A stretch of DNA of 64,000 bases from NCBI GenBank assembly GCA_963555705.1, contig OY743168.1, positions 99,527,925-99,591,924 of the forward strand, written 5' to 3'. A program made the translations under genes and the position numbers. Each line of letters begins with the position of its first letter. The first letter of the stretch is position 1. This stretch comes from Ligustrum vulgare. Its lineage: Eukaryota; Streptophyta; Magnoliopsida; Lamiales; Oleaceae. This document shows positions 3,939 through 32,741 of this stretch, piece by piece. The notes beneath the pieces were generated by a model. The model was given only the letters and a program-made list of their open reading frames with translations, was not told where the DNA came from and ran no database searches.

Positions 3939-6900
3939 ATGAATAACTCAAGAGATCCTAAAGTTGCCATTGAAGAGGTTGGTTTTATATTAGCTAAATT
4001 AAATGTGATTTTACATGTTATATGTCAAAAATTAAATTATCATCACTTATATTTACTAATAAAACATGCTATTTTTTTCATAGAAATACAAAACAATTAT
4101 CCGTCAGGTACAAAATCAACAAAGACGACAAAAAAATGCATTTCGTAGGTCTCAAGAAGAACACTATGTTGACAAGCGCAAACATAAACCGAATTTAGAT
4201 GGTAACTTGATCTCTTTTTTTCGATATTTTTTGGTGTTTCCCTTGTCAGAATTTAGATTTCCAGCATAGTTTTATTATTTACATTGTTAGAATCAGAATA
4301 TAAACTTTAAGAAATATTTACATGCAATTTTTTAAATATAGAATCTATACATTAACATATTGGGATTTCTAATAGCCTTATTCTAATCGTGTTAATTTTT
4401 TTTTTAGGTTCAAACAACATTTCCTAAATAATTATAATTGTTCTTTATTGTTCATTTTCTTGCTGGTTTTCATAATTTTTTTTTCCAATTCAGCTGCTGG
4501 ACAAAACAATGGTTACCTATATCACGGAAGTGGAACCTCTTCGGTCGGCTTTGAACAACATACCATAGAAATTTCTTTGCCAGTACCAGATGTAATCATT
4601 GAAAAACCACATGATTTATAGGTTCGAAACATATCACATCAAAGCACCAAATTAACTATACCTATAGCTGCTTATGTGTTGCCCCATTTTACTGTTTGCG
4701 AGCATTGTGGAGCCAAAAAGTTTTACAGAGAAAGCAAGGGATTCTGTTGCTCTGATGGGAAGGTCAAATTACGTACACATTCTATACCTGATGATTTGTT
4801 TAAACTTTTTACTTCGAGTTGTCAAGAGTCAACTCATTTCAGAACTGTTTGTCGATCGTACAATAACCATTTTGCTTTCACCTCTTTTGGCGTAAAATAT
4901 GATAAAGAACTTTGCAAATCAAATAAAGGTATTTACACTTTCAGAGTACAGGGACAGGTATATCATTATGTCAACCCGCTTTTACCTCGCGGTGATGCTA
5001 AGCCTTCATATATGCAACTTTATTTTTATGATACAGAAAATGAAGTGCAAAATCTTCTTCACAGCTCAGATAGGTTCCTTGAAACAGTTTTAGTAAAAAA
5101 TATTGAAAGCTTGAAAACTAATCCTTATTCAAGTTTTTTTAGATCTTTAAATGACAAAGAAAACTTAGACACTCAACGAATTCAAATTAGGTGTCATCCG
5201 GGACTTGACCAACGTGTTTATAATACACCTGTCTCTTCTCAAGTTGCTGCAATTTGGGTAGAAGATGATCCGTGTGCAAACATTAGGGCTCGTGATATAT
5301 CTATTTGCGGGCACTCAGGTGAGTCTCACAAAGTTCATTACTATTACGGTTGTTATGACCCTTTGCAATATCCATTATTATTTCCATACGGTGAACCTGG
5401 ATGGCATGAAGGTATTGAGCGTACTAGAAATGCCAATGAACAACCACAATGCGTGTCTGAAGTTTTGGTAGATGTAAACACTTTAGTCTATCCCGAACAA
5501 CTAATTCAAAGAGAATCCGAAGGTTATTTTACCAGTTGTTTAATATATATTAATTATTTCATTTTTTTTAAACAATGAATTTTACCAATTTTTTTAATAT
5601 GTTCCTATTTCTATTTGTTTTTTCAGTGCTTAACTATGGTAAGAAACGCTACCAGATCTCTTGTAGAGAGTATTATTGTTACAAGTTGCAAATTCGCCCT
5701 TCAGGTAAATCTCTATTACTCCATGGGGGTAGACTTCTACAACAATATGTAGTTGATATGCATATTAAAATTGAAACATCTAGGCTTGATTATTTTCGTA
5801 ATAATCAAAAACATATACGTGCTGAACTTTACCAAGGAATAGTTGATAGTGTTGAAAATGGAGAAAATGGAGGAAGCATGATTGGGAAAAAAATTATTTT
5901 GCCAGTGTCGTTCACATGTGGTCCTAGGGATATGCAAAAGAGATATAGAGATGGGATGTCTCTTGTCTAGCGATATGGAAAGCCAGATATTTTTTTGACA
6001 ATGACTTGCAATCCTAATTGGCCTGAAATTAAGCAAGAATTAGAATACTCTGACGAGATACAGAATCGACCTGACCTCGTAGCTCGTATTTTTAAAGGAA
6101 AACTTGATGAACTAAAGAATGATCTAATTCACAAACATATTTTAGGGCCAGTAGCTGCCTATATTTATGTGATTGAGTTTCAAAAAAGAGGTCTTCCTCA
6201 TGCACACTTTTTGCTGATCTTCAAAAATGGTCATAAAATCTGTACGCCTACTGAAGTTGATAATATTGTATCATGTGAATTACCTGATGAACAATTATTT
6301 CCTTACTTTCATTCTACTATTGTTAAGCACATGATGCACGGTCCTTGTGGTACATTAAATTCAAAGAATGTATGCATGAATGCTGATAATTGTTGTAAAA
6401 ACAAGTATCCTAGAGATTACTCAGCCCATACTTTATTAGGAGAGAACTCTTATCCTATTTATAGACGTCAGAATAACGGGCATTCAGTTAAAGTTAGAGG
6501 ACATTTTCTAGACAATCGATGGGTCGTCCCCCACAATCGTTACTTAATTGCTAAATTTAACTGCCATATTAATGTTGAAATATGTTCTTCAATTAAAGCT
6601 GTTAAATATTTGTACAAATATGTATACAAAGGGCATGATCGTGTTAACTTTTCAGTATCAAATGACCAACCACCTGCTCAGATTGATGAAATTTCTGAGT
6701 ATCAGTCTGGTAGGTGGGTGTCTCCGCCTGAAGCAATGTGGAGAATCTTTTCATTTCTTCTGTCAGAGATATATCCAACCGTTATTTCTCTGCAACTCCA
6801 TCTTCAAAATCATCAACTGATAACATATAATGATCAAGATAATCTATCAAATGTACTTAACAAGTCCACTGCAAGTCGAACTATGCTAACAGAATTTTTT

Positions 6901-8942
6901 TTGATGAACAGTACTAATGAATTTGCACGGACTTTGTTGTACAAAGATTTCCCTACACATTTTGTTTGGAATTCAGGTAGAAAAATGTGGACAACACGAA
7001 AGCAGCAAATAGTTATTGGTCGAGTTGTTGCAGCAAGTCCGAACGAAGGTGAGCGATATTTCTTGCGAGTACTTCTTAACCATATCAAAGGTCCACTATC
7101 ATTTGAACATTTGAAAATTGTTAATGGAGTTAATGTGGCTACATATCGTGAAACAGCTTTGTTACATGGATTGTTAAGTGGTGACAATCATTGTGAAGAA
7201 TGTATGTCAGAAGCTGTTGTTTACCAAATGCCTGGTTCATTAAGGCGTCTTTTTGTAACCCTATTGACACTTTGTAATCCAACCAATCCAAAAATGCTAT
7301 GGGAGAAATTTAAAACTAATATGTTTGAAGATTATATACAACATGGTCTACAAACTAAACATGCTGAACAAAAAACTTTATATGACATTACTTCTATATT
7401 AGAAACACTAGGGAAGAATGTGAATGATTATGGGATTGTGTCATATATTATTTCCTTGGATGATAATGAAAGACTAAACAGAATGATTGCAGAAGAGACT
7501 ATATCTTTAGATATTGAAAGTGGCATCTCCTGCGAGACAAAATTAAATAAAGAGCAACGAATTGCCTTCAATACAATCATGGGATCACTTGTAAATGAAG
7601 CTGGTGCTGTTTATTTTGTGGATGGCCCTGGAGGAACGGGTAAGACTTTTTTATATAAAGCTTTATTATCAGCTGTCAGGTCTAAAAACTATATTGCTTT
7701 GGCAACTGCATCGTCAGGAGTTGCTGCTTCTTTGTTATCTGGTGGGCGCACAGCTCATTCAACGTTTAAAATTCCTTTAGACACAACTGGCAATATCAGC
7801 TGTTCAGTTAGTAAACAATCAGCTTTAGGAAGACTGCTAAAAATGACTAGATTAATTATTTGGGATGAGGCTCCAATGGTTAATCGTTGTGCAATAGAGG
7901 CACTACATAAATTGTTGCAGGATATAATGGAATGTGAATTGCCTTTTGGGGGAAAAAAATTTTGTTTTTGGAGGTGACTTTCGTCAAGTTTTACCTGTTG
8001 TACAAAGAGGTAAAAGAGAGGATATTATCAAAGCAAGCTTAGTCTTTTCGGATTTATGGCCGTCTTTCATACAGTTACCTTTGGTTCAAAACATGAGAGC
8101 AAATCTTGATCCAGAATTTTGTGATTATTTATTACGAATTGGAAATGGAACTGAGACAACATACTTGTGATTCAATAAAACTTCCATCAAATATAACTCT
8201 AAAGTTTGAAGACGAAACAATTTCATTGAAAAGTCTTATTGATATAGTTTTTCCAAATATATCAACATATACAGACAATTTGCATGAGATCGTCAACAGA
8301 GTTATACTAACACCTAAAAATGAATGTGTTGATCAAATAAACAATCTTTTATTAAATCAAGTTCCTGGTGAAATGTATACATACTATAGCTTTGATGAAT
8401 CAATTGAAAAGTCAGACCAAACTTTCCAAGAAGATTTCCTAAATAGTCTATCACCAAATGGTATTCCACCACACGAACTAAATTTCAAATTAAACTGCCC
8501 CGTAATGTTGTTACGCAATATCAATCCATCTGAAGGTCTTTGCAATGGCACGAGACTTGTTTGTAGGAAATTTGAACGAAATGTTATTGCTGCTGAAATC
8601 ATAAATGGGGAATATATTGGAAACCATGTATTTTTACCAAGGATTCCATTCACTCCATTAGAAAGTGACAAAATTTCAATACCATTCAAAAGAACCCAGT
8701 TTCCAATCCGTCCATGTTTTGCAATGACAATTAACAAAGCACAAGGGCAAACTTTAGATTTTGTTGGTTTGTACCTTCCTAAGCCAGTATTCTCTCATGG
8801 CCAATCGTATGTTGCACTCTCAAGAGCAAAGTCAAGTAAAGATATACAAGTGTTGTTAAAACCATCAAATGCAAATCATGAACACTTTTCTTGCACAAAC
8901 AATGTAGTGTACAGAGAGATTCTCATGCTCACTCAACATTAA
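3939..8942 (+). pseudogene. Helitron Rep/helicase transposase, decayed
   Basis: This is the rolling-circle transposase: a HUH-type Rep nickase joined to a Pif1-like helicase. The exons read as 3939-3977, 4084-4201, 4494 to about 5530, and 5627 onward, with GT-AG borders. An N-terminal zinc-binding segment (CEHCGAKKF) is at about 4700. The Rep domain starts at PDIFLTMTCNPNWPEIK (about 5985), with the metal-binding HxH in GLPHAHFLLI (about 6190) and the two catalytic tyrosines in KYLYKYVYKGHD (about 6605). The helicase has Walker A GPGGTGKT (about 7625), Walker B WDEAPM (about 7860), GDFRQVLPVV, and the late motifs FAMTINKAQGQT and SYVALSRAKS (to about 8830). Lesions are TAG stops at 4619-4621 and 5968-5970 and frameshifts near 7965 and 8165. 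It cannot make full-length protein. Confidence 0.92.
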
Positions 8943-9387
8943 TGCCTATTCGTTGATGCAGACACATCTGGTACTCATAATATTACTAAGTAGTTATTAG
9001 TTTCGTAACTATATAGATTTGATTTTGGGTTTTCATGAAATTTAATTTATTTTACTGGGGATTTTTGTATTTCTTTTACTTTTTGTTTACTCTTAACAGA
9101 TGTATATCTATTTGTTTTTTTTTTCCCTCAGATTTTGGATGATATAAAGCTAAATGATGGTTTTTAAAAGGTGTAAGGTATATTCATTATCAAACCAAAC
9201 ATTTAATGTATCTTTACTGCTCTTTTTTTAGGATTATTTCAGCTTTGAGATACAATCATGTTTGACCATGTTCACAGATAACAGTATTGTTGAGTAAAAT
9301 TAGAAGTGGACAGATGAATCAATAATATAATGGGTTTTCTTATTAGTGGAGTATTCATTATTAAACAACGTTCATTTGTTATGTACA
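8943..9387. other. non-coding spacer after the Helitron helicase
   Basis: AT-rich sequence without a coding frame. It ends where a copy of the Rep-gene segment begins. Confidence 0.5.
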
Positions 9388-9692
9388 TCATTATTTCCAT
9401 ACGGTGAACCTGGATGGCATGAAGGTATTGAGCGTATTAGAAATGCCAACGAAAAACCACAATGCGTGTCTGAAGTTTTGGTAGATGTAAACACTTTAGT
9501 CTATCCCGAGCAACTAATTCAAAGAGAATCCGAAGGTTATTTTACCAGTTGTTTAATATATATTAATTATTTCATTTTTTTTAAACAATCTATTTTACCA
9601 ATTTTTTTAATATGCTCGTATATGTATTTGTTTTTTCAATGCTTAACTATGTTAAGAAACGCTACCAGATTCTCTTGTAGAGAGTATTATTG
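9388..9692 (+). repeat. duplicated segment of the Helitron Rep gene
   Basis: This is a near-identical copy of 5374-5681. It starts at TTATTTCCATACGG, covers the coding stretch FPYGEPGWHEGIERIRNANE, the intron, and the start of the next exon, and ends at GAGAGTATTATTG. A few substitutions separate the copies. The offset is about 4.0 kb. It stops exactly where histone H3.3 intron sequence begins. Confidence 0.92.
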
Positions 9693-10055
9693 ATTTGTTC
9701 TACTTATGGATTCAGACATGTAATTACATTTTTTTGAATTGTTCATCTTTTCACTGATGTAATATTTTGAGTTGCTTGACTTAGGCTGCCCGTAAGTCTG
9801 CCCCGACTACTGGTGGTGTGAAGAAGCCTCATCGCTACCGTCCTGGTACTGTTGCTCTTCGGTGAGTACTCTTTCTATATTTACATTTTTTTTGTCACAT
9901 TGTGGAATAATGGTTGTTTGTCTTAAAATTGTGCTGATTTATGGTATCATTAACCTTATAATTTAGTGAAATCCGTAAGTACCAGAAGAGTACTGAGCTC
10001 TTGATCAGGAAGCTGCCGTTCCAGAGGCTATGCCCCTAGATTGACGACTTCAAGG
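9687..10055 (+). pseudogene. histone H3.3 gene fragment (intron 1 to exon 3)
   Basis: It begins inside intron 1 and includes exon 2 (9785-9861: KSAPTTGGVKKPHRYRPG), an intron (9862-9966) and most of exon 3 (9967-10054: [20 protein letters not shown], then a disrupted end). Thr31 and Tyr41 mark the plant H3.3 type. The final part of exon 3 has lost the frame and meets a TAG. The retained introns show that it came from genomic DNA, not mRNA. It corresponds to 21019-21389 of the second copy. It joins the Helitron fragment through a shared TTATTG. Confidence 0.88.
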
Positions 10056-10278: not shown

Positions 10279-10626
10279 TGCATGCTATTAGAAAATTTGA
10301 AAAATGTACTTCGGACAAATAACTCAAACCTCAAGAACTTGATGAAATTTGTTCCAAGCTGAGAGAGTCCATGAAGTCTGATATTAGACATGCATCTGCC
10401 TTGAATACTCTCGGCTTGATACTTCTTAAAACAGGTCGCTTGCAGGTCCAAATGACACGCACACATATATTCTTCGTTAATATCATGTTTGTACCCAATT
10501 AGATTTCTTGATTTAAAATTACTTATTATCTTCTCTAGGGTACTATATCAGTATTTCAAATCTGTTGGATATTGTTCTCAACAACTTGGATTGTCTTGGA
10601 AACCTTGGAATCACCTATCTTCAAAG
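10279..10626 (+). pseudogene. two exons of a TPR-repeat protein gene (SPINDLY-like family)
   Basis: Exon A (10279-10445) ends in the frame ELDEICSKLRES...ALNTLGLILLKTGRLQ and is followed by GT. Exon B (10539-10626) reads SNLLDIV...LDCLGNLGITYLQ, ends in phase 2 and is followed by GTAAG. TPR helices (LNTLGLILLKTG, CLGNLGITYLQ) act as protein-interaction scaffolds; the run resembles plant proteins annotated as SPINDLY-like or O-GlcNAc-transferase-like TPR proteins. A TAA upstream in exon A and a one-base shift early in exon B show decay. The next exon in the right phase is at 22648, beyond the inserted LTR element. The function name is from family memory only. Confidence 0.65.
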
Positions 10627-12234
10627 GTAAGTAGGAGTAATATAGCGACTCAGAATTTTTATGCAATAAATAATTATTTTAATATTTAGAAAATTGTGTC
10701 GCTACTATTTCATTTATTATTTTGAAGTTAACGCCGCGACGGATTCGTCTAGTCAAGTCAAGAAATATCGAATTTGTTCGATTTTAAATTAAATTTCCGA
10801 ATTTCTAAAATTATGTTATTTTAATTGTTTATTCAAAGTATTATTTTCAGTCCAAAATATATCAGTTTTAATACAATTCCTTATACAAAAACATCATCAT
10901 TATATATATATATATTTTACATCTATTTCATATTCCATCTCATTATACAAACACCAAAGCATTTCCAACTAATCTCTACACAATTCCATCATCCTTCCAT
11001 ATCAAACAAATCATGATGTCTTCCATTATTCATTTTTTTTCTTTCTCCCACCTTCATTGTTTTCTTTCCATTTTCTTTCCCTTTGCACAAATCACACCCG
11101 AGCACCAACAAGACCATTTCAAACCACCACCTAAATTCCACAATAAACAAAGCAATTATCATATAGACATTACACCTATTCTAATTCAAAACTCCAACCT
11201 GGTCCATTTTCATCATTCCCTCCACCTACTCCCATCTACTTTCAATCTCATAAGATTCCCAAACCTTCCATGTGCATCCACTTTACAGCTTCATCTCCAT
11301 CTCCAGCTATCAACCCTCACCACACACTGCAAAACCAAGCATCATTATGTTCCTATACCAAATTCTCCACTAATCAAATCACAATTTCATTTCCATCTAC
11401 CTTAATACCACCACAGCTTTTCCATCATTATATCAATCCACTAACTCACAGCCATTCACTGCTAAGCATCTTCTACTGCCCAGATTGAACTCCAAACCAA
11501 CAGACTGCTTCAATCGAATTCATCACACTGAAATCAATCTGTCAACCAACAATCCTCAATCCAGTTGCAGCCCCAAACCACAACCACGAAACCTATGTAT
11601 CATCATCTCCATCCCACACTGCTCACGATCATTATCACCACCACAATACACAAAACTAGAAACCTGCCATCTCCACCTTCATCACCCGGAATCAGCCACC
11701 ACCACTGCAATGTTAATCACAACCACCGCCTGAACCTCCATCGACGCCACTGCCCAACTTCAATAGCAAATCAGAACAACTCCTATAACAACCCAACACA
11801 GTCTGCATTCCCAAATCCTAATCAACCCAACTGCCATCAACCAATCGAGTCTCTGACCAACTCCAATTCAGTGCCAAAGCCCCAAATCAAAATAAAACCC
11901 AAAACAAAAACCAAGAATCAATTTACCCATAGCACTTACCTCGAACTCCAATCAGTTTTGACCGGAGTTCCACCGGAAATCGCATCTCCAAACTCAGCCT
12001 CCAGTGTCTAGGTTTCACATCAAATTCGCTCCAAATCGCTAACCATTTACTGAACCAGTCACTGCCACATGATGTCCGAACCACCGCCGGAGTTGCGCCG
12101 GCAGTAGACCGGATATTTCTCAAATCCACCAGTTTCAGCCGCAACTCTCTGTCTCTCGTTTTCTCTCGTTTTCTCTGATCTGAAACGTAAAGGAAGAGAA
12201 GATATATTTGATATTATATTTTAACTTTTAAGAT

Positions 12235-12555
12235 TTGCAAATTAGTCCTCAAGTTTCAAAAGGTTTTCAATTTAGTCCTTTCAGCTTTAAAGTTTTGCAT
12301 TCCAGCCCTTAAAGTTTTAAATGAGTTTTAATTAGCCCTTTTATTTTAAAAATCTGGTCATTTCAGCCCCCTGCTGATTTAATTTATTTGATTTTAAGCC
12401 CAAGTTTCAAAAGTACTCATTTTAATCCCTCAACTTTCAAAGTATCCATTTGAGTCTTTCAACTATCAAAAGTATCCATTTAAGTCCCTCAACTTTCAAA
12501 AGTATTCAATTTAGTCCCTGAACTTTCAAAACATCAATTTTAGTCTTCAAATTAT
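12235..12555 (+). repeat. tandem repeat of about 30 bp in the 5' LTR
   Basis: About ten degenerate units on the theme AATTTAGTCCCTCAACTTTC, with units ending in AAAAGTATCC-like text. The same array is at 18977-19297 in the other LTR. Confidence 0.85.
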
Positions 12556-12869
12556 AATTTATCATTTTGAACTATATATTCGATAGAATAAAGTGACTTA
12601 TTGGCTAAGACGAAGCGTACGGAGAATTTAAAGAAATTGAAGTCATTCCCGCTCAACTTTGCACTCGTCGGATTTGAGGTAGACTCGCACTTATTAATTG
12701 ATTTAAATTATGATTTCATATAAATGTCATGTGACTTGTGAAAGTCAATTTTTAAGAAAAACAAGTATGTTTTTATGAAAGGTAAATATACCTTATGTTT
12801 TTATGAAAAGTAAGTATACCCTATGTTTTTACGATAATGTTTTATATGTTTTGGATCATTGCTATGCAC

Positions 12870-13265
12870 ATAAGAATTCTTACCACCTATGTTCGGTAGA
12901 ATTCTGTGTCTCCATAAGTTTATGAGGATTTACCACCTAAGTTCGGTAAAATTCCTGTCTTTCCATATGTTTATGAGGATTTACCACCTAAGTTCGGTAA
13001 AATTCCTGTCGCGTATGTTTATGAGGATTTCGATCCTATCTTATGTTATGATGGAAATGATCCCTATGAATTTCATGAATTATGTTTTGGTATACTTACT
13101 GTTATTATGATACTTACTACATAAGAATTCTTACCACCTAAGTTCGGTAAAATTCTTATGTTTATGAGGATTTCGATTTTATCCTATGTTATGATGAAAA
13201 CTTACTGTTATTATGATTTTACTGCATAAGAATTCTTGCCACCTAAGTTCGGTAAAGTTCTTGTG
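12870..13265 (+). repeat. array of hairpin-forming repeats in the 5' LTR
   Basis: Five units carry TTACC-ACCTAAGTTC-GGTAA, an inverted repeat with a ten-base loop, separated by TTTATGAGGATT-type text. The unit at 13120-13160 is extended: AAGAATTCTTACC faces GGTAAAATTCTT, giving a long stem with one mismatch. The same array is in the 3' LTR at about 19612-20007. Confidence 0.85.
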
Positions 13266-13962
13266 TCTCCCTATGTTTATGAGGATTTCAATCCTATCTT
13301 ATGTTATGATTTCAAAAGAAATTATGCTTGGCATAATTAAAATGTTTTTATAAGTATATGGTTTTCAAGGAGCTGTTTTCAAAGAGCTGTTTTCAAAGAG
13401 CTGTTTTCAAAGAGCCTATGATTTGCAAAATATGTCCCGTGCTGTAATGCACAATATGAGTTTTATCAAGAGCAGTTTTATAAAGAAGCTCTATCAATGC
13501 CCGTTTTATAAAGAGCCGGGATTTATGTGTTTAATCATCTTATAAATTAAATTAATATGCGATGAGTCTACTGAGTATTTCCCCCATGAAATACTCACCC
13601 TACTTTTTAACAGTTTTGCAGATTTCGGAGACGGTGGCGAGCGATGAATGATGGTGGCAATAATCGTTGAACGGTTGAAAGTTTGACGTTAATGATTTCC
13701 GTATTTTCCAAACAATCGAATAATTTAGAGAAGTTCATTTATTTGAGAAATTATGATATTGGCAATTTCTTTACAATATTAATGGTTCGATTTACTATTT
13801 CAAATGGTTTCATAAATGTTTTCAATTTTAGCGGCCATTACAGTTTATTTAATGTTGCAAAAAATGAATTTCAATTATTTCTTCCGCAAAAAATATTATT
13901 CGAAAAATTTAGACAGAAAATGACGTAGTGAATCGGGTATACGGAACTCGGGGCGCTACAAG

Positions 13963-13975
13963 TTGGTATCAGAGC
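13963..13975 (+). promoter_or_regulatory. primer-binding site of the LARD-like element
   Basis: TTGGTATCAGAGC starts two bases after the LTR. It is complementary to the 3' end of initiator tRNA-Met, as is usual for Tekay/Del gypsy and many copia elements. It fixes the element's orientation as plus. Confidence 0.9.
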
Positions 13976-14929
13976 TAGTCTGCGTTTCTGTAGACTGGAA
14001 AAATTTTCAAAAAGAATTTTCAAGAAATATTTTCCATTATAAAATATTATTGATGAAGATTGCCACTGCCATCATTTCGTTCCACCAACTCCGAGGTAAA
14101 GAAGTTTATGATGTTTAAAGTTATTTCAGTATTTCGAATACTCATTTTACTAATTTATGAGAAAGAATGAAGAGTATTTCGGATACTTATGATTTATGAG
14201 AAATAAGAATGTATTTCTTCGAAAATAATGATGTTGTTATGCTTTGTCATAACTTATATGCTTTAATGTATGATTATGAGAAATTTTTTTAAAAGAAAAC
14301 GAGTGTTGAGCATAATGGGAATAATATGATTTTATTGAGAATTAAGTAATGGATATTATGTTGAGTTAATTTATTATGCCTCTATGTTGAAGAGAAATTT
14401 ATTATGAAGTTTGGCTTTGTGAATAAATTTTGGGAATATGATTTATGGCATATATTTATAAGTATGAGTAACTTTTGAGCCAATTAAGGTATCGAAGGAA
14501 GTGATATTGTGATATTGAAAAATATGATTTGAAATTGTTATGTTGAGGAATTATGAATTGAATTATGAGATATTTTTGATGATATTGAAGTGTTGGAATC
14601 ATTTTCAATATTTTTAGATCGTTGTGATCAAATGTGGAGTTATTTATTATTGTGAGTTATGAAGTATGCTTATGGTTTGGAATAAGTCCAAATTACAAGG
14701 GAGACTCTGTTCAGAATTTTATCAATTTGGAATTAAGAGCATAATATGATAAGCATCCACTAAAGGGATTAAGGTTAGACATGCAAGATCATTTACATCA
14801 CAAACGAGATTTAGTAGATGATAGCAGAGATTTTATTATTTTCTCATAAGGAGAACACACAAGAGTCACACTGGAAAGGAAATACATGAAACACACGAAA
14901 GCATAAGAGAAAAACATGGAAAGATCCTC
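13976..14929. other. non-coding interior of the LARD-like element, left part
   Basis: AT-rich, with no gag or pol frame. From about 14280 to 14555 it matches 29800-30075 of the second gypsy element (shared TTGGGAATATGATTT and GGCATATATTTATAAGTATG). After 14555 the similarity stops. At 14670-14730 is an LTR-type motif (AAGTCCAAATTAC, then GGGAGACTCTG) also seen at 28630, 35510, 59165 and 62320. Confidence 0.7.
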
Positions 14930-15135
14930 AGAATGAGAGATGTGTTTCCGGAGTAGCCGTATCCTACCACCTCTGATCTTTTGAGGAAATAAAGAAACCT
15001 TCAAAGAGGTGTGTTTCGAGAGTAAGAATACTCCGTAATCTACCACCTGGAACCTTTGAAGTACACACAAGATTTAAACATTAAGGAAATCCTAGTAAAT
15101 GGAGGGGTGTCTCGAGAGTGAGAATACTCCGTACT
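14930..15135 (-). repeat. three tandem covarying hairpins beyond the LOG gene
   Basis: Three related units, each with a nested stem. The middle unit (about 15000-15060) pairs CTTCAAAG with CTTTGAAG, AGGTG with CACCT, and GAGTA-AGAA-TACTC at the tip. The first (about 14926-14985) pairs CCTCA with TGAGG, AGAG with CTCT, and GGAGTA-GCCG-TATCC. The third (about 15100-15140) pairs GGGGT with ACCCC and has tip GAGTG-AGAA-TACTC. The stems differ in sequence but keep pairing. In the orientation of the LOG gene they fall in its 3' untranslated region. Confidence 0.75.
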
Positions 15136-15157
15136 CTACCCCCACCTATTCTAAGAT

Positions 15158-15811
15158 TCAAAGAGTTAAGTTTACATTAACCGGACTCCATTTTCGCTTG
15201 ATTCCCCTTCCTTGCGACCAATCTATCTTAACTCCTGCTGGATCTTGTATTGAGATATATGACTGCAGCTTATCCAGTAGTTCATCAATAGTAGGAGCAG
15301 AAATAAGAAGCCTTCTGGAAAATGGAGAGATGAATCCCTGTTCCACAGCATAATCAAGAAAGGTTAACAAACCATCAAAGAAATTGTTAACATTCAGAAG
15401 CCCAATAGGCTTAGTATGGAGATCTAGTTGAGCCCACGAGGTAATGTTAAAAATTTCTTCTAAGGTACCAAAACCTCCGGGCAGGGCTATAAAGGCATCA
15501 GAACCATATAGCATACAAGTTATGCGTTCATGGATGGATAAGGTTTGAACTTCATGCCCTCGTGTTTTGCCTGCAACATCTACCAAAGGGACAGGTATAA
15601 CACCGATTACTTTTGATTTCTCTGCAAGAGCTGATTGGGAAACACAACCCATTAGACCACTGCTACCACCCCCATATACAAGAGTGATACCTTTTTCCCC
15701 CAGTTTCTTTCCAAGATCTACGGCCGCTTCTAGATAACCGAAGCCTTTCCCTACTTTTGATCCACAAAATACACAAATAGTTTTGATCTGTCGAAGTTTT
15801 GGTGCTTCCAT
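15158..15811 (-). CDS. LOG-like: LOG-type cytokinin riboside 5'-monophosphate phosphoribohydrolase, intronless
   Basis: 217 residues, the usual plant LOG length. LOG enzymes release active cytokinin base from the nucleotide form in one hydrolytic step in cytosol or nucleus. Visible blocks are ICVFCGSKVGKGF (residues 12-24), LVYGGGSSGLMGCVSQ (44-59), GVIPVPLVD (70-78), the conserved arginine in HERITCM (R96), the family signature PGGFGTLEE (111-119) with its glutamates, and TSWAQL (124-129), followed by the usual KPIGLLN. All family landmarks are kept. Plant LOG genes normally have several introns; this one has none, which suggests origin from RNA. It lies antisense inside a young LTR element, 341 bp downstream of the zinc-finger frame on the same strand. 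A TATA-like box is about 79 bp upstream of the ATG. The C-terminal tail (KIDWSQGRGIKRKWSPVN) is not family-typical. Activity is inferred, not shown. Confidence 0.85.
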   Translation of the reverse strand: MEAPKLRQIKTICVFCGSKVGKGFGYLEAAVDLGKKLGEKGITLVYGGGSSGLMGCVSQSALAEKSKVIGVIPVPLVDVAGKTRGHEVQTLSIHERITCMLYGSDAFIALPGGFGTLEEIFNITSWAQLDLHTKPIGLLNVNNFFDGLLTFLDYAVEQGFISPFSRRLLISAPTIDELLDKLQSYISIQDPAGVKIDWSQGRGIKRKWSPVNVNLTL

Positions 15812-15884
15812 CTTTGATATTAAAGAAGGGAAAACTTACGAAGAAGATGTGATTTTGGGATGCCTGAACTATGAAATATGTTTG

Positions 15885-15896
15885 GCTATTTAAAGC
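15885..15896 (-). promoter_or_regulatory. TATA-like box upstream of the LOG-like gene
   Basis: On the minus strand the text is GGCTTTAAATAGCC, about 75-80 bp before the start codon: a normal TATA position for a short leader. A closely similar box precedes the zinc-finger frame. Confidence 0.5.
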
Positions 15897-15989
15897 CGGA
15901 AAAATTTACTGTTTTTGATTGATTCTGAAAAAGTAAAGATTCACTTTTTGACAAAATCGACCAACTTTTGACTATTTTATCAAAGATAT

Positions 15990-16095
15990 CACCTTTCGGT
16001 GATTTATTTCCAGCTTTATCAAACCTCGAGAAAAGAAAAATATATTTATTTCCAGCTTTATCAAAACTCGAGAAAGGAAAATATTTTTATTTCCA
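15990..16095. repeat. short tandem repeat between the two cargo genes
   Basis: Two to three copies of an approximately 43-base unit beginning TTATTTCCAGCTTTATCAAA and ending CTCGAGAAAGGAAAATAT. A small hairpin, CACC-TTTC-GGTG, lies just before at about 15991. Confidence 0.8.
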
Positions 16096-16151
16096 AAACG
16101 CGTTAAAGAAAATAGCAAAATATTTTAAAAAAGCATATCAAAAGATTTACC

Positions 16152-16718
16152 TTATATCATTGCTGAACTGCCAGAAGCCTCATTTTGTAAAACAGACTGG
16201 CAAACAGGATCTTTCGATATTATATTTTGGAGACTATAACGATTTTTGTCCTCGTTAAACTGAGCGTATAAGGAGAGAAGTTCACGTTGTACATAACCAC
16301 TTGGGTGCGTCTCAAGAGTCAGTCGAATATCATCCAAAGACTCCTTACTCAGTCCACCCTTTATGAATTCGATTTTATCATCCCGATTAGTAGAAGAATA
16401 TCCTACTGATTTGCAACGAGTATCACAATTCCAACGAGCACATTTGTAGCAACCACCCAGCCTTTTTGCTCTTCGTTTCTTTGCGAACGTGCTTTTGCCT
16501 AAACCAGGCATATGTTTTGGAAATGTTGATGGTAATTCACCAGATAGTCGAACCTTTGCTTCTATCAACCAGCGAACATCTTCTGGAATACCATGAGTCA
16601 TCAGCAACCTCAATCTTTCGAGTCTTATTCTATAGATCTTTCTCAGATCATTCATAGGAAGACTGGAATAATACTTGCGAATGTTAGAAAGGATGATATC
16701 CATTGTTTGATGATTCAA
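16152..16718 (-). CDS. basic zinc-finger protein resembling plant-virus nucleic-acid-binding protein
   Basis: 188 residues, with an alternative start at Met6 that better fits the TATA spacing. Residues 1-70 are helical-looking and charged. Next come a basic arm (STFAKKRRAKRLGG, 76-89), a four-cysteine finger C90-x2-C93-x4-C98-x3-C102, and a polar tail with KIEFIKGGL (115-123). The combination of a G(K/R)ST(F/Y)A opening, an arginine/lysine run, a compact four-Cys finger and a following F-I-x-x-G motif is, from memory, the layout of the small nucleic-acid-binding proteins of carla- and vitivirus-type filamentous plant RNA viruses, several of which suppress RNA silencing. Those proteins are usually shorter and lack the long N-terminal part. 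The frame is uninterrupted. It could instead be a host or retroelement zinc-knuckle protein; a profile search would decide. Confidence 0.6.
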   Translation of the reverse strand: MNHQTMDIILSNIRKYYSSLPMNDLRKIYRIRLERLRLLMTHGIPEDVRWLIEAKVRLSGELPSTFPKHMPGLGKSTFAKKRRAKRLGGCYKCARWNCDTRCKSVGYSSTNRDDKIEFIKGGLSKESLDDIRLTLETHPSGYVQRELLSLYAQFNEDKNRYSLQNIISKDPVCQSVLQNEASGSSAMI

Positions 16719-16733
16719 CCTCTTCCCAGCATG

Positions 16734-16746
16734 AACTATTTAAAAG
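16734..16746 (-). promoter_or_regulatory. TATA-like box upstream of the zinc-finger gene
   Basis: The minus strand reads GCGCTTTTAAATAGTTC, ending about 16 bp before the first ATG and about 31 bp before Met6. With a normal 25-35 bp TATA-to-start spacing, transcripts would begin near Met6. Confidence 0.45.
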
Positions 16747-17362
16747 CGCAAGGATATGAATGAATCCGCGTGATTTGTGTTACAGTAAGAAAGCATGGAA
16801 TAAAATAATGGATAAGAGGAGACAAGAAGTAATGCGCTGTTAAATTTTATCGATAAAGGAGATTTGATTTGAGATTTGGAATATTTTTCTTGGATTATGG
16901 GTACTGATATTTTGTTATAATAATGATAATCATGGTATAGTGTGATGATACGTGGAAAGTAAAATGAGTACCGTATTGAATCAGAATTCATACGTATATA
17001 CAAGTGAAAGAAATACTTTGCAGGAAATGTGGTGACATTTAAGTATAGAATCTTAGTTTTGGGAGATATTTGTTTACTGAATTTTGGGTTACAAATGTTG
17101 GAAAGATAAGTTGATGATATTATGTTGATATGTTACGTAGAGAGAATATTCAGGTAATTCTTTGATGATTTTGGGAATTTTCGATGATAAGAAAGGAAAA
17201 ATTATTATGATACGATATGTCAGTAAAGATTTGATGAATTTTTTACATACGATTGGGAATTGTTTTGATTATTTTGAGAATATTCGATGATAAGAAGAAG
17301 AGATTCTGATTAAGTATTCAGAAATTATAAGATTAAGTAAGTTTAATTTCGAGGACGAAATT

Positions 17363-17380
17363 ATTTTAAGGAGGTAAGAT
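17363..17380 (+). promoter_or_regulatory. polypurine tract of the LARD-like element
   Basis: AAGGAGGTAAGAT lies immediately before the 3' LTR and is preceded by CGAGGACGAAATTA, the block that ends Tekay/Del-type gypsy interiors. The second gypsy element has the equivalent at 32742-32764. Confidence 0.85.
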
Positions 17381-20300
17381 TATAGCGACTCAGAATTTTT
17401 ATGCAATAAATAATTATTTTAATATTTAGAAAATTGTGTCGCTACTATTTCATTTATTATTTTGAAGTTAACGCCGCGACGGATTCGTCTAGTCAAGTCA
17501 AGAAATATCGAATTTGTTCGATTTTAAATTAAATTTCCGAATTTCTAAAATTATGTTATTTTAATTGTTTATTCAAAGTATTATTTTCAGTCCAAAATAT
17601 ATCAGTTTTAATACAATTCCTTATACAAAAACATCATCATTATATATATATATATATTTTACATCTATTTCATATTCCATCTCATTATACAAACACCAAA
17701 GCATTTCCAACTAATCTCTACACAATTCCATCATCCTTCCATATCAAACAAATCATGATGTCTTCCATTATTCATTTTTTTTCTTTCTCCCACCTTCATT
17801 GTTTTCTTTCCATTTTCTTTCCCTTTGCACAAATCACACCCGAGCACCAACAAGACCATTTCAAACCACCACCTAAATTCCACAATAAACAAAGCAATTA
17901 TCATATAGACATTACACCTATTCTAATTCAAAACTCCAACCTGGTCCATTTTCATCATTCCCTCCACCTACTCCCATCTACTTTCAATCTCATAAGATTC
18001 CCAAACCTTCCATGTGCATCCACTTTACAGCTTCATCTCCATCTCCAGCTATCAACCCTCACCACACACTGCAAAACCAAGCATCATTATGTTCCTATAC
18101 CAAATTCTCCACTAATCAAATCACAATTTCATTTCCATCTACCTTAATACCACCACAGCTTTTCCATCATTATATCAATCCACTAACTCACAGCCATTCA
18201 CTGCTAAGCATCTTCTACTGCCCAGATTGAACTCCAAACCAACAGACTGCTTCAATCGAATTCATCACACTGAAATCAATCTGTCAACCAACAATCCTCA
18301 ATCCAGTTGCAGCCCCAAACCACAACCACGAAACCTATGTATCATCATCTCCATCCCACACTGCTCACGATCATTATCACCACCACAATACACAAAACTA
18401 GAAACCTGCCATCTCCACCTTCATCACCCGGAATCAGCCACCACCACTGCAATGTTAATCACAACCACCGCCTGAACCTCCATCGACGCCACTGCCCAAC
18501 TTCAATAGCAAATCAGAACAACTCCTATAACAACCCAACACAGTCTGCATTCCCAAATCCTAATCAACCCAACTGCCATCAACCAATCGAGTCTCTGACC
18601 AACTCCAATTCAGTGCCAAAGCCCCAAATCAAAATAAAACCCAAAACAAAAACCAAGAATCAATTTACCCATAGCACTTACCTCGAACTCCAATCAGTTT
18701 TGACCGGAGTTCCACCGGAAATCGCATCTCCAAACTCAGCCTCCAGTGTCTAGGTTTCACATCAAATTCGCTCCAAATCGCTAACCATTTACTGAACCAG
18801 TCACTGCCACATGATGTCCGAACCACCGCCGGAGTTGCGCCGGCAGTAGACCGGATATTTCTCAAATCCACCAGTTTCAGCCGCAACTCTCTGTCTCTCG
18901 TTTTCTCTCGTTTTCTCTGATCTGAAACGTAAAGGAAGAGAAGATATATTTGATATTATATTTTAACTTTTAAGATTTGCAAATTAGTCCTCAAGTTTCA
19001 AAAGGTTTTCAATTTAGTCCTTTCAGCTTTAAAGTTTTGCATTCCAGCCCTTAAAGTTTTAAATGAGTTTTAATTAGCCCTTTTATTTTAAAAATCTGGT
19101 CATTTCAGCCCCCTGCTGATTTAATTTATTTGATTTTAAGCCCAAGTTTCAAAAGTACTCATTTTAATCCCTCAACTTTCAAAGTATCCATTTGAGTCTT
19201 TCAACTATCAAAAGTATCCATTTAAGTCCCTCAACTTTCAAAAGTATTCAATTTAGTCCCTGAACTTTCAAAACATCAATTTTAGTCTTCAAATTATAAT
19301 TTATCATTTTGAACTATATATTCGATAGACTAAAGTGACTTATTGGCTAAGACGAAGCGTACGGAGAATTTAAAGAAATTGAAGTCATTCCCGCTCAACT
19401 TTGCACTCGTCGGATTTGAGGTAGACTCGCACTTATTAATTGATTTAAATTATGATTTCATATAAATGTCATGTGACTTGTGAAAGTCAATTTTTAAGAA
19501 AAACAAGTATGTTTTTATGAAAGGTAAATATACCTTATGTTTTTATGAAAAGTAAGTATACCCTATGTTTTTACGATAATGTTTTATATGTTTTGGATCA
19601 TTGCTATGCACATAAGAATTCTTACCACCTAAGTTCGGTAGAATTCTGTGTCTCCATAAGTTTATGAGGATTTACCACCTAAGTTTGGTAAGATTCCTGT
19701 CTTTCCATATGTTTATGAGGATTTACCACCTAAGTTCGGTAAAATTCCTGTCGCGTATGTTTATGAGGATTTCGATCCTATCTTATGTTATGATGGAAAT
19801 GATCCCTATGAATTTCATGAATTATGTTTTGGTATACTTACTGTTATTATGATACTTACTACATAAGAATTCTTACCACCTAAGTTCGGTAAAATTCTTA
19901 TGTTTATGAGGATTTCGATTTTATCCTATGTTATGATGAAAACTTACTGTTATTATGATTTTACTGCATAAGAATTCTTGCCACCTAAGTTCGGTAAAGT
20001 TCTTGTGTCTCCCTATGTTTATGAGGATTTCAATCCTATCTTATGTTATGATTTCAAAAGAAATTATGCTTGGCATAATTAAAATGTTTTTATAAGTATA
20101 TGGTTTTCAAGGAGCTGTTTTCAAAGAGCTGTTTTCAAAGAGCCTATGATTTGCAAAATATGTCCCGTGCTGTAATGCACAATATGAGTTTTATCAAGAG
20201 CAGTTTTATAAAGAAGCTCTATCAATGCCCGTTTTATAAAGAGCCGGGATTTATGTGTTTAATCATCTTATAAATTAAATTAATATGCGATGAGTCTACT

Positions 20301-20688
20301 GAGTATTTCCCCCATGAAATACTCACCCTACTTTTTAACAGTTTTGCAGATTTCGGAGACGGTGGCGAGCGATGAATGATGGTGGCAATAATCGTTGAAC
20401 GGTTGAAAGTTTGACGTTAATGATTTCCGTATTTTCCAAACAATCGAATAATTTAGAGAAGTTCATTTATTTGAGAAATTATGATATTGGCAATTTCTTT
20501 ACAATATTAATGGTTCGATTTACTATTTCAAATGGTTTCATAAATGTTTTCAATTTTAGCGGCCATTACAGTTTATTTAATGTTGCAAAAAATGAATTTC
20601 AATTATTTCTTCCGCAAAAAATATTATTCGAAAAATTTAGACAGAAAATGACGTAGTGAATCGGGTATACGGAACTCGGGGCGCTACA
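17381..20688 (+). repeat. 3' LTR of the LARD-like element
   Basis: 3,308 bp. The 12 bp length difference from the 5' LTR is fully explained by one fewer 14-base unit (AGCTGTTTTCAAAG) near 20130 and one extra AT in the microsatellite near 17645. Only a few base substitutions were seen. Confidence 0.95.
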
Positions 20689-20935
20689 AGTAATTAGTGA
20701 TGTAATTGCAATAGTCTAATTCATGTACCTATAATGATAAAATCATTTTCTACAATGCATGTCTATAGTGATGTAATACATTTTTGTCGTGAGTGTAAAT
20801 AATACATTTTTATTTTAATTAAATGCATGTCTGTATGTTTCATTTTTATGTCCCAAAAATTGTCTTAACTCCATAGGCTCTCTTTAGGGAAATTTGAGAA
20901 TATGATTATAATGCAATAAACGGGATAATCTGCAG

Positions 20936-21717
<782 letters not shown>

Positions 21718-25671: not shown

Positions 25672-25686
25672 CCCACTGTAATACCA

Positions 25687-26140
25687 CTTTTCGTCTTGCG
25701 TGCTTTCTTGAATACCACCTAAATTTTTTATGATGAATAATTTATTTGACAATTATTATTAATAATAAGTTGAATCATTTTGCAGTGGAAGGACTTGGAC
25801 GCCGTCTCGATCAATCTACCAACTAGAAAATTATTAAATCTTTTCATATAATTTTATGCTTAATTGTTTATTCAAATTGTTACTTACCAAATTTAAATTT
25901 TGTCACTTTGCAATTTTCCGTCTTGCGTGCTTTCTTGAATACCACCTAAATTTTTTATGATGAATAATTTATTTGACAATTATTATTGATAATAAGTTGA
26001 ATCATTTTGCAGTGGAAGGACTTGGACGCCGTCTCGATCAATCTACCAACTAGAAAATTATTAAATCTTTTCATATAATTTTATGCTTAATTGTTTATTC
26101 GAATTGTTACTTACCAAATTTCTATTTTTATCAATTTGTA
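25687..26140 (+). repeat. 227 bp tandem duplication unique to the 5' LTR
   Basis: CGTCTTGCGTGCTTTC occurs at 25692 and again at 25919; the 3' LTR has it once. The first unit ends with a 25-base segment (25892-25916) that is the exact reverse complement of 26235-26259 further along the same LTR. Confidence 0.93.
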
Positions 26141-26865
26141 ATTTGCCTAGATTGCATTATTTCGTAAATAGGGCACTTTGTTAAACTTGTGAAGGATTTA
26201 CACTTAAATTACCCGTTTTGAAAGTAGAGGGACCAAATTGCAAAGTGACAAAATTTAAACCTAGACCTAATTTTATAAACCGCACAACTCGGTCTCTCTC
26301 TCTTCGCACACCTCACGCTCTCTCTCTCTCTCTACCGCTCCTCTCTCTCTCGGTCGCTCTCACAGCGCTCTCGGCTCTCTCCGTATCTCTCCGTCTCTCG
26401 GCTCTCTCCTCTCTCGACCTCACTCAGCTCACCGTCGCCCACCACCGGTAACCCTCCCCTTCCCTCGTTCCTTCCCCGGCAGCGCACACACCCGACACAA
26501 AACACACACACAGCGCACGCCAAACACACACACGCACTCGCACACACATATATGCGTATTGATGTGTGTATATGTTGAGTGTATTGTATATAGGCTGAGA
26601 TTTTCAAATTTTCAGATTTCAAAATATGTAGATTTCGATTTTTAAGGGTTAATTTTGATATTTGAATAATGTTTATATAAATGTATGTATAGATTGTGTT
26701 GTAAACCTAATTTATGAAATTGGTAGCTTAGGAGACTGTTTGGTTAAAGTTTGAGTTATAATAATAATCTTTTTCATATTTTCAGATTTTAAGTTTGGTT
26801 AGATTTCGAATTATAATTGCTAATTTGGGGATTTGGTAATGCTTATGTATGTGTGTATTGATGTG

Positions 26866-26921
<56 letters not shown>

Positions 26922-27934
26922 TCCCACAGTAATTTTTCAAATTCGGACTAAGTATGATTTCGAAATTTAATTGATTGATTTCAGTTTTTAAATTTAGGTA
27001 TTTAGTATTTATATGTGATAGGATTTGAAAATTATTAAATCGATTTGTTTAATTGATTTTCTTCTAGTTTAGTAAAAGGTTAAATTGAGAATTTTAGAAT
27101 TTGGGAAAGTGATAAAAACGTGAATAAATTTCTGATTTTTTTAAGTATGTATATTAAAATTTCTGATTTTGGAGATTTATGAAAATTGTAGCTTAGTTAA
27201 CTGTTTGGGTAAAGTTTGGATATATGTTGATTTTAAGATTTGTGAATTTGTTGAGATTTTAAGGGATTGATTTTATAACGTTAGGTTGAATTATGTAAAT
27301 TTGAGTTTGAGTTTGAATTTAAAAATGAGAGTTTCTAACGTGGATTGAAATTGACATCTTATTTCGAATATGGTGTTATGTGTTGGACCTAGCGTAAGGT
27401 CACGTTTGGGATTAAATTGTGAATGAAATAGAAGTTTTAACCTTGCTTAGAGTTAAAATGTGAATTTGAACTAAAAGTATATTTCTTTATATGAATGGGC
27501 ACAACTAGGATTTTGGTACATTGACGTCACGGGCAGCCGATGATCCTCCACTTGCAAATCCAGATAACGGTAAATACTAAGGATGTCAAGTAAGTAAACT
27601 TCCCCCTATTTTATAGAAGTTGAATGTAAATGTGAAATGTGTAAATGACTGCCTTGTAATCTACTTGCCTTGATGAATTTCATTTACGTTATGAAAGTAT
27701 GTGTTATTGAGAAGAATGTTCAAGCATGCACATTATCATGTCATTGCATCATGAAGCATGCATTGGCATCGAAATTGGGAAGTCAAATGTTTTAAATGAA
27801 AGACATGTATCAAGGTGCAAGTTTGTTCAAAAGTTATGTATCCCAAGTTTTTGAAAGAATGAATGGGTGTACTTCTAGTTCATGAAAGTTGCGAGTGGGA
27901 AATGGGGCGCGGGGGACCGGCGTACCCGAATTAA

Positions 27935-28022
27935 GTCGCTTTGCGACGGAATGTTCAACCGTTTACGGTGGACTGTTAAACCGCTTTGCGGTGGGAAAGT
28001 GAATGTTAAACCGCTTTGCGGT
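27935..28022 (+). repeat. four perfect short hairpins in tandem, 5' LTR
   Basis: GTCGC-TTT-GCGAC (27935), ACCG-TTTA-CGGT (27958), ACCGC-TTT-GCGGT (27980) and the same again (28010). The stem sequences differ but pairing is kept. The 3' LTR has the set at 34805-34892, with one G-to-A change in the third. Confidence 0.9.
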
Positions 28023-28800
28023 GGAAATGCGCATGTAATCTGGTTCCAAATAAGTCATTGCCCACTGTATTCTGATTGACTAGAAGTTACACCAAGTGAG
28101 CTCACGATGGAATGAAGTGAAAGTTTTGAAATGTTAAGTGAAAGTTTGAAAAGTTTGAAAGTTCTGGAAAGTAAAGTAAATGGGGATACATACATGGAGT
28201 TTTTAAAGCATTCATGTCATAAGCATGCATTCATGCATACAGTTTACTTACTGAGCTTTAGCTCACCCCAATCCCTCCCCAACATTTCAGGTGATGAAAG
28301 TTAGATGATCAGAGAGGAGCACTTGGCGGCTGACTCCGACAGTACCCGTTGTCGCCTTAATTAATAAAGTTAAATTCATTCGAGTTATCATTTAAATTTA
28401 TTTCTTCATTCATTATTATTGATAATGGTTTGGTTGAAGTTATTTTGATTAAGTATGGAACGTATTAGAGGTTAAATTACCTTTTATTTCAATTGTCAAT
28501 GTTTGATGATGTTTTGGAAAATCTTATACTTGAGGAGTTCGGGAAATGAATGGATTGGTTTTGGCGATGGTGAATGTGATTGTGATGTGATTGATGCTTA
28601 CAATTTGTAAAATGGTCTTGATGTCCCTCTACAGGTTGGCTATGTCCAGTTTATAGAGGAGACTCTGTCGAAATTTCTGTAAAATTTTATAATGGATAAA
28701 TGAACATTTTTGTCGTGTAAACGTTTTAAATTCCGCAATTAATGTGAATGGAAGTTAACATACCTAGGTTAAGATTCTTGTACTTGGGGTGTTACATTTT

Positions 28801-28812
28801 TGGTATCAGAGC
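28801..28812 (+). promoter_or_regulatory. primer-binding site of the nested element
   Basis: TGGTATCAGAGC lies four bases after the LTR and is complementary to initiator tRNA-Met. Confidence 0.9.
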
Positions 28813-29199
28813 TAAGAGTTTTAAAAGCGATTCTGTAGACTTTTAAAATTTATTTGAAAATGGTTCGGGTACTGAGTCACGCCTCAAGTGCATCTTCCTC
28901 GATCATCTGGTAAGTTAATTTTTGTTTAAATTATGAAATGTTAATTGATATGACAATTATTGCAAATTCTTGCATGTTAATGTGTAATGTCGGAAAGTGA
29001 AAGGTTGAGAATGTTGTCAATGATTATGACGAGTATATCTTGGTTATGTAAATGAGGAAGTGAGAAAGTAATGGTTATTAAAAGTTTGGGTGCCGTTTAT
29101 TAAATCTTTTTGCGAAATAAGAAATGGAGATGAATGGTATATCGGATCGAGAGTATACAATGTCCCAATCATGGTGAATGGGAAGGAGTAGATGATGAA

Positions 29200-29745
29200 T
29201 TTCATAACACTGAATACCCACAAACTTGATGTCATACTAGGAATGAGATGATTATTATGGTATAAGGTTTCAATCACTGACTACGTTAAGGTGGTATTTG
29301 AACCTTCGAATGAGACCCTTTTTCGCCTTGTTGAGGTAAAGGTAGAACTTTTCATATCGATATTATCAGTGATGAAGGCTCGTCAATTGATGAATAAGAG
29401 TTATTAAGACTACCTGGTTGCAATAATTGAAGTGTCTAAGGTGAATACTTCTCTCGAACAAATTTCTATTATTCGAGAATGACTAAAGATGTTCTCAGAA
29501 GATCTTTGTGATTTACCGCCTAAAAGAGAAATTGAATTTGTCATCGATTATGTGCGCAACTCTAGTATCCAAGGTATAATATCGGATGGCTCATTCGTAA
29601 CTTAAAAGAGCTCAAAGTGCAACTATAGAATCTCATGGACAAAGGTTTTGTTCGACCTAGCTTTTTGCCAAGGGGTACTCAGGAGCTATACATGAAGAAG
29701 AAAGATGGTTTTATGAGACTTTGCATAATTGATTTTAGACATGGC
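29200..29745 (+). pseudogene. gypsy protease and reverse-transcriptase remnant
   Basis: Broken frames align with the Tekay/Del pol order. A protease-end block reads LDVILGMR (about 29224-29250), SVMKARQLMNK follows near 29369, then the RT N-terminus EFVIDYV (about 29535), LKELKVQL (about 29605), [12 protein letters not shown] (about 29636) and [11 protein letters not shown] (about 29697). Many stops and shifts separate the blocks, and the RT catalytic region is absent. Confidence 0.75.
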
Positions 29746-32728: not shown

Positions 32729-32741
32729 TTTCGAGGACGAA

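Follow-up and report, generated by a model that had tools for sequence, protein, structure and literature searches.

The window analysed here, a stretch of 64,000 nucleotides from Ligustrum vulgare whose own numbering is used throughout, carries a long terminal repeat (LTR) retrotransposon at 10641-20688 that lacks gag-pol and bears two protein-coding genes on its minus strand. The first open reading frame (ORF) encodes NABP, a flexivirus-type nucleic-acid-binding protein of 183 aa (16152-16703), and downstream of it lies a gene for a LOG-like protein of 217 aa (15158-15811). We show that both antisense proteins were kept by selection while this family without gag-pol multiplied. The element probably represents a non-autonomous family of the large retrotransposon derivative (LARD) type with long LTRs and chromovirus-like termini, which carries an antisense accessory module of two genes, each with a TATA-like box in front of it, that encode NABP and a LOG-fold protein of remodelled form. 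An earlier note on this DNA had placed a complete element at 13961-17380. The element is indeed complete, with an AGTAA target-site duplication, a primer-binding site (PBS) and a polypurine tract (PPT), but these coordinates cover its interior alone. The further statements of that note, that the LTRs are nearly identical, that gag and pol are missing and that two uninterrupted frames run on the opposite strand, each behind a TATA-like box, were all borne out by the results given below.

The TATA-like box TTTAAATAG is found on the minus strand at 16736-16744, 41 nt before the NABP ATG, and again at 15886-15894, 83 nt before the LOG ATG. All 21 copies of the element retain both boxes. When the interior was simulated 1,000 times with a first-order Markov model, the second-longest ORF was at most 132 aa, while the largest value for the longest ORF was 234 aa. 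This simulation, together with the selection, the indel pattern and the homologues described below, disfavours an origin of the two frames by chance.

For the copy analysis, the source genome (1.385 Gb) was searched with two probes. With a LOG DNA probe we obtained the best 40 of 1,578 candidates and with a noncoding probe from the 5' interior the best 40 of 1,723 candidates; the two lists of 40 places share three and hold at least 77 distinct places. We read 20 non-tandem places from the LOG-probe list (21 copies with that of the window) and five of the 37 places unique to the noncoding probe (rows 4-8 of its list). All 20 read copies have the structure LTR-interior-LTR, and 16 of them are flanked by perfect 5-bp duplications that differ from one another. 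Three of the remaining copies (L016, L017 and L022) abut further interior in a tandem arrangement, and the right end of L030 is unresolved. No gag-pol frame was found in the 21 interiors examined. In some places, two or three copies follow one another head to tail at a spacing of 6.1-6.7 kb, for example at C12:46683559-46697097 and C4:30861572-30874947. This spacing corresponds to one LTR plus the interior, which is the pattern that LTR-LTR recombination would give.

The LOG frame is open in all 21 copies and the NABP frame in 19 of them, window included; NABP has lost its stop codon in L020 and has one internal stop in L024. Both frames are also open in three additional copies (L005-L007) and in all five copies of the noncoding probe, and LOG is open in an unlisted copy adjacent to L037. 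The earlier note had asked for several independent insertions with different duplications, frames kept open instead of random stops and a dN/dS that is not near 1, and the family has all of these features. For LOG, the ratio of non-synonymous to synonymous polymorphism (pN/pS) was 0.000 across the 21 copies, 0.037 (confidence interval by bootstrap over codons, 0-0.112) in the window plus the five noncoding-probe copies and 0.016 (0-0.051) in all 26 copies. The corresponding values for NABP were 0.152 (0.057-0.332) in the 19 open copies, 0.321 (0.135-0.744) and 0.184 (0.085-0.364). The five noncoding-probe copies alone gave 0.049 (0-0.160) for LOG and 0.347 (0.147-0.849) for NABP. All eight variable codons of LOG across the 21 copies are synonymous (P 2.5e-5 versus random change), and 18 of the 34 variable NABP codons are synonymous only (P 4e-4). 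Variants shared between copies are synonymous or non-synonymous in a ratio of 14:6 for NABP and 6:0 for LOG. Moreover, neither ORF has a single indel in these copies, whereas gaps make up 0.7-27% of other interior stretches. Because the frames are open in many copies and pN/pS lies below 1, we conclude that selection kept both proteins.

Two other explanations of the open frames have to be considered at this point. The genes might be lately captured passengers whose frames are intact only through the youth of the family. The LTRs are young, with an LTR-LTR divergence of the copies of 0-2% over the part of the 3' LTR that was compared, and plant retrotransposons are known to capture genes (PMC7264820). 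A passenger origin is nevertheless very unlikely in our opinion, given a dN/dS below 1, the absence of indels in the read copies and the existence of relatives of both proteins in other plants, where they are joined in Orobanche gene models. It is also conceivable that the antisense transcripts matter rather than the proteins, through a double-stranded RNA control of the element as it has been proposed for other antisense ORFs (PMC7264820). Such a control would leave the synonymous excess in the two ORFs unexplained, which makes it extremely improbable.

NABP has a basic GKSTFAKKRRAK stretch that is followed by a cysteine finger-like motif. It matches two viral Pfam models above their curated cut-offs, PF05515 (Viral_NABP, 1.5e-7) and PF01623 (Carla_C4, 6.3e-6), in agreement with its first description as a virus-like zinc-finger protein. 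The same holds for its family, where 104 of 118 aligned members match PF05515 and 100 match PF01623 (E<=0.001). Among 404 candidates we found 345 relatives at E<=0.1, and the best 120 of them include proteins of Orobanche, Populus, Acer and Xanthoceras; the matches listed are 54-82% identical. The basic stretch, the cysteines and the segment NR(E/D)DKI.FIK.GLSKESLD are for the most part near-invariant, and the conserved C-terminal part extends past residue 120, where the Pfam-matched stretch ends. The predicted structure is of moderate confidence (pLDDT 70.9, pTM 0.34); a previous model from 23 sequences was poor (pLDDT 54) and was not used. Compared with BFVD, the model has small plant-virus proteins as its top five matches, none of them significant (best E 0.069). 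These are the silencing suppressors of Fig latent virus 1 and Chrysanthemum virus B, the 15-kDa protein of Cherry mottle leaf virus and the NABPs of Garlic virus A and Red clover vein mosaic virus, all of which we take to be flexiviruses. When viral contigs were scanned, neither the NABP protein nor its alignment found a relative. Cysteine-rich proteins (CRPs) of carlaviruses and mandariviruses are reported to be silencing suppressors or pathogenicity determinants (PMC12172455). Therefore, counter-silencing or transcriptional reprogramming is our first guess for the role of NABP.

The second protein has the SLOG/LOG fold, as it matches PF03641 with an E-value of 1.3e-33 and the structure of Arabidopsis At2g37210 with 1.6e-57. 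In LOG enzymes, Arg99 and Glu122 are catalytic, and Met96, His97, Lys100, Glu125 and Trp129 form the prenyl pocket (PMC4979012). The protein of the window keeps the PGGxGTxxE motif, Arg99 and Glu122, but its five pocket positions read Ile, His, Ile, Asn and Trp, so that three of five are changed. We compared its 120 best matches, whose own genomic context is established for few, with a host set for which the 120 top matches to Arabidopsis LOG3 were taken, and which thus holds close kin only. Three relatives under 200 aa were dropped, which left 117, and eight of these without the anchor motif were excluded from the pocket counts. Among the 109 relatives counted, Arg99 is kept in 105 and Glu121-Glu122 in 104, while Lys100 is kept in only 8 and replaced in 101, and Glu125 is kept in only 7 and replaced in 102. 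The host LOGs keep Arg99 and Lys100 in 120 of 120 and Glu121-Glu122 and Glu125 in 108 of 120 each; the 12 without Glu121-Glu122 at the expected place are probably altered gene models. The ends of the proteins differ as well. The motif LxLxL, the commonest EAR repressor motif (PMC9956375), lies within the last nine residues of 92 of the 117 relatives and of 0 of the 120 host LOGs, and a basic cluster lies within the last 25 residues of 104 of 117 compared with 1 of 120. The window protein ends in KRKWSPVNVNLTL.

The matches listed for the LOG-like protein are 48-93% identical and include Populus LOGL10 proteins. We built a tree from 36 of the 120 relatives, 22 of the 120 host LOGs, the window protein, two Orobanche fusions, AtLOG8 and a bacterial LOG. 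The window protein pairs with P0121 (99/99) and lies, apart from the host LOGs, in a seven-member set with the two Orobanche fusions and a Diospyros protein (100/99). The root was placed at the midpoint, and the bacterial outgroup joins the host side on a long branch. Three relatives, P0121 not among them, stand on the host side (P0161, P0212 and P0239). Two of these, P0212 and P0239 of Xanthoceras, show the canonical pocket MHERKAEM, end in KKRRLA and lie near host LOGs; they are possible intermediates of the remodelling. The scan of viral contigs with the LOG alignment gave one match of 29% identity (L002).

Is the LOG-like protein a normal cytokinin-activating enzyme that alters hormone state and cell division in the host? 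The earlier note had called it cytokinin-activating, and the LOG fold, the PGGxGTxxE motif and the two catalytic residues are in line with this label. A passage attributed to the paper on p12 of the carlavirus CVB would also fit a shared proliferative theme. However, Lys100 and Glu125 are replaced in nearly all relatives, while all host LOGs keep Lys100 and most keep Glu125, Met96 has become Ile in the window protein, and two Orobanche fusions (P0016 and P0022) have Asn at the catalytic Arg99 position. We thus regard a normal enzyme as rather unlikely. Since most relatives have lost two pocket residues and most bear a basic LxLxL tail, the label appears doubtful. An altered nucleotide substrate or a role with a co-repressor is more likely than plain cytokinin activation.

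The NABP and LOG families occur in several plants, and they are linked in Orobanche, where the gene models P0016, P0017 and P0022 join NABP to a partial LOG in the same order as in the window. Reevesia pubescens accounts for 38 of the best 120 LOG relatives, on 16 contigs that differ in size, and this multiplicity suggests a mobile carrier there. Contigs of equal size occur for both families (four shared sizes, 0.55 expected, P 0.0014, from 61 NABP and 38 LOG contigs of ~1,300 bases up), a weak indication of linkage, as the lists were compiled by hand and the same size does not prove one contig. A further relative of NABP is found on the 3.3-kb contig DAIEQH010000041.1 (L001). This contig is plant-like but is filed in a metagenome-assembled genome of Candidatus Nomurabacteria, likely a contamination of the record. 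Its retrotransposon-like DNA (104-2347) holds an integrase frame (rve 2.4e-16, Integrase_H2C2 1.4e-12), downstream of it NABP in sense and finally, by eye, a purine tract. We take it to be Athila-like, a lineage assigned by eye, with NABP at the site where Athila elements carry env-like genes. Between the window NABP and that of L001, dN/dS is 0.20 at a dS of 1.37.

The neighbourhood of NABP and integrase in L001 raises the question whether selection acted on an unseen autonomous relative with NABP and LOG, of which the LARDs are recent deletion derivatives that do not need the genes. The low LTR divergence would agree with such a recent origin. On the other hand, 21 of 21 interiors are devoid of a gag-pol frame, so the changes that separate the copies probably arose inside the LARD family, and the variants that these copies share are mostly synonymous in NABP and all synonymous in LOG. 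An autonomous relative as the seat of selection is therefore unlikely to our mind.

Several points weigh against a selected accessory module within the LARD family. Both samples of copies are best-scoring matches and not random draws, the confidence intervals ignore kinship among the copies, and the copies are young. Mean pairwise divergence is 0.3% for LOG, 1.8% for NABP and 1.7-6.1% for other interior stretches. The low diversity of LOG in the 20 copies is biased, because they were picked by their similarity to LOG; NABP was not directly selected by this probe. Of the other interior stretches, the one of lowest divergence (1.7%) is that below LOG. NABP is no lower than this stretch, so that its constraint is visible in the codon pattern and the absence of indels, not in total divergence. 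Singleton variants of NABP number 7 synonymous and 11 non-synonymous, stop changes included; the difference from the shared variants is what one would expect of copies that decay once they are inserted, with constraint on the lineage that is passed on. In a tandem pair (C4:764045-764699 and C4:770772-771426), which makes up two of the 40 places of the LOG probe, LOG spans 655 instead of 654 bases, and the one-base insertion deduced from this span probably shifts the frame at both places, as a shared change. Moreover, free-riding by defective copies is expected for a trans-acting gene in a non-autonomous family, which weakens the idea that the genes help the element. Transcription from the genes' own promoters is deduced from the DNA letters, and the viral link of NABP rests on Pfam scores, because the structure matches are non-significant. 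As to the LOG-like protein, the tail of the window copy (VNVNLTL) is one step off the strict LxLxL, and among the three Orobanche fusions two have the LxLxL end while P0022 is without it.

Under the reading that we favour, a LARD-type family with a two-gene accessory module, the retention of the genes suggests that they help the element. The element would be moved in trans by a chromovirus partner, possibly Tekay-like, while NABP and LOG would be transcribed from their own promoters and their proteins would act as accessory factors that raise the spread of the element. By analogy with carlavirus CRPs, NABP would be an RNA- or DNA-binding protein that dampens silencing or changes transcription. 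The LOG-like protein, with its altered pocket and its basic LxLxL-like tail, would be nuclear and act on a modified nucleotide or recruit a co-repressor. A wider proposal, which we put forward tentatively and with some doubt, is that NABP together with the EAR-tailed LOG makes up an ancient, mobile module for counter-defence, which passes from one Ty3 lineage of plants to another, in sense in Athila-like elements and in antisense in chromovirus-like LARDs. NABP would then stem from a pool common to RNA viruses and retrotransposons, LOG would have changed from a hormone enzyme to a nuclear factor through which a nucleotide signal is coupled to TOPLESS-type repression, and together the two would keep host cells permissive for transposition. 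If this is true, a non-autonomous element with selected accessory genes would be the helper of its helper.

The element has all the parts of an LTR retrotransposon. The 5' LTR (10641-13960; 3,320 bp, ends TATAGCG...CGCTACA) and the 3' LTR (17381-20688; 3,308 bp) are 99.4% identical over 3,325 columns, with 4 mismatches and 16 gap positions; the element is young. The AGTAA duplication stands at 10636-10640 and 20689-20693. The PBS TGGTATCAGAGC at 13964-13975, presumably of the initiator tRNA-Met type, is kept in 21 of 21 copies, and the PPT AAGGAGGTAAGAT at 17368-17380 was identified by eye. On the sense strand of the interior the longest stop-to-stop frame is at most 109 aa, and the Athila-like integrase of L001, the only gag-pol probe used there, has no tblastn match in the interior at E<=1e-3. 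Long LTRs (2.6-3.6 kb across copies) and interiors without a long sense frame in 21 copies agree with a LARD; a non-coding interior, which is also part of the usual definition, is not present here, as there are two selected ORFs inside. An interior stretch of 242 bp (14332-14573) is 88% identical to 29859-30101 of a neighbouring remnant element (25.7-35.7 kb) that bears a chromodomain remnant and whose 3' end matches Chromo with an E-value of 9e-5 and 22.8 bits, below the Pfam cut-off of 25.1. From this likeness and from the termini of the element, a chromovirus appears as the ancestor and likely helper. Repeats had also been noticed around the genes. A 42-nt repeat (15006-15047 and 15102-15143, 88% alike) lies downstream of LOG on the minus strand and a 38-nt pair (16002-16039 and 16044-16081) between NABP and LOG, and no known RNA element was found among them, as Rfam gave nothing at the gathering threshold over 10600-20750. 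A nested DNA transposon bearing both genes was rejected, since the flanks 14570-15160 and 16701-17130 share no exact inverted 10-mers. Likewise, an Athila remnant around the gene block was rejected, since the L001 integrase matches the window solely at 39986-41095.

A direct repeat of 343 bp (9687-10029 and 21019-21361, 97% identical) flanks the element, at 611 bp from one end and 325 bp from the other, and the element may hence sit within an older repeat. The neighbouring element at 25676-35666 has an LTR pair (25915-28796 and 32776-35666) that is 99.4% identical, an additional partial LTR copy near 25677-25919 and an interior with 4 kb of decayed pol and a chromodomain remnant; this interior has no significant match to the NABP-LOG block. 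Elsewhere in the window, 5362-5678 is repeated at 9375-9692, and a Helitron Rep/PIF1 helicase frame (5971-7977; PF14214, PF05970) is followed by another open frame at 8097-8942. A Ty3 integrase frame of 330 aa on the minus strand (40169-41161) matches rve and H2C2 and is 29% identical to the L001 integrase. The minus strand also holds two MULE transposase remnants (45055-46488 and 53537-54958), which are related to each other with ~70% DNA identity.

How does this family compare with known systems? Barley LARDs have long LTRs, a PBS and a PPT, an interior of ~3.5 kb, no gag-pol and a high copy number, and the family described here is like them in all of these features. LARD interiors are generally held to be non-coding, whereas the interior here codes, which raises the question why a family without gag-pol retains protein-coding genes. 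The NABP is similar to the NABPs and cysteine-rich proteins of carlaviruses and other flexiviruses in its basic stretch with a following cysteine finger and in its matches to PF05515 and PF01623. It differs in its length of 183 aa with an extra conserved C-terminal part and in its carrier, a retrotransposon and not an RNA virus. A flexivirus replicase-like sequence is endogenous in cucumber (PMC3136472). In the open-licence literature, seen mostly by titles and starts of abstracts, we found no report that places NABP in a retrotransposon. With the family described here, the question of where the cysteine-rich suppressor of flexiviruses came from can be tested on a large set of plant sequences.

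The earlier note knew of no such combination, which holds for NABP within that literature but not for LOG. LTR retrotransposons with a LOG (YgdH) have already been published from Citrus and Populus (PMC9289625, citing Steinbauerova 2011). These Gypsy elements likewise bear an ORF of the LOG fold, but they came to light in reverse-transcriptase-anchored consensuses, while here the carrier has no gag-pol and its LOG is antisense and paired with NABP. The Citrus and Populus elements are regarded as Athila-like. Gypsy elements of Phalaenopsis with an RNA demethylase also represent a plant Ty3 lineage that keeps an additional ORF, for which a part in the conflict between host and element has been proposed, but they are 25 kb long, have their own gag-pol and encode another enzyme (PMC9289625). 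In sunflower, Tekay elements carry a different, sense 5' ORF (PMC11728184).

Antisense ORFs of unknown function are carried by Grande (gene23) of maize, RIRE2 of rice and Retand of Silene (PMC7264820, PMC11963269). As in our family, these are antisense genes in Ty3 elements, with an own promoter in Grande and a proposed accessory role, and some Retand elements are non-autonomous. Their ORFs, however, are placed after pol and before the 3' LTR and code for proteins that have a TRP28 domain or are unnamed, and which these papers describe as lacking similarity to viruses; here, two ORFs of other families fill an element without gag-pol. According to a 2020 review, clear similarities had not been described for the proteins of antisense retrotransposon ORFs (PMC7264820), and a 2025 survey names mainly the TRP28 domain, of unknown function (PMC11963269). 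The antisense ORFs of the Ligustrum family belong to identifiable protein families, are open in many copies and show measured selection.

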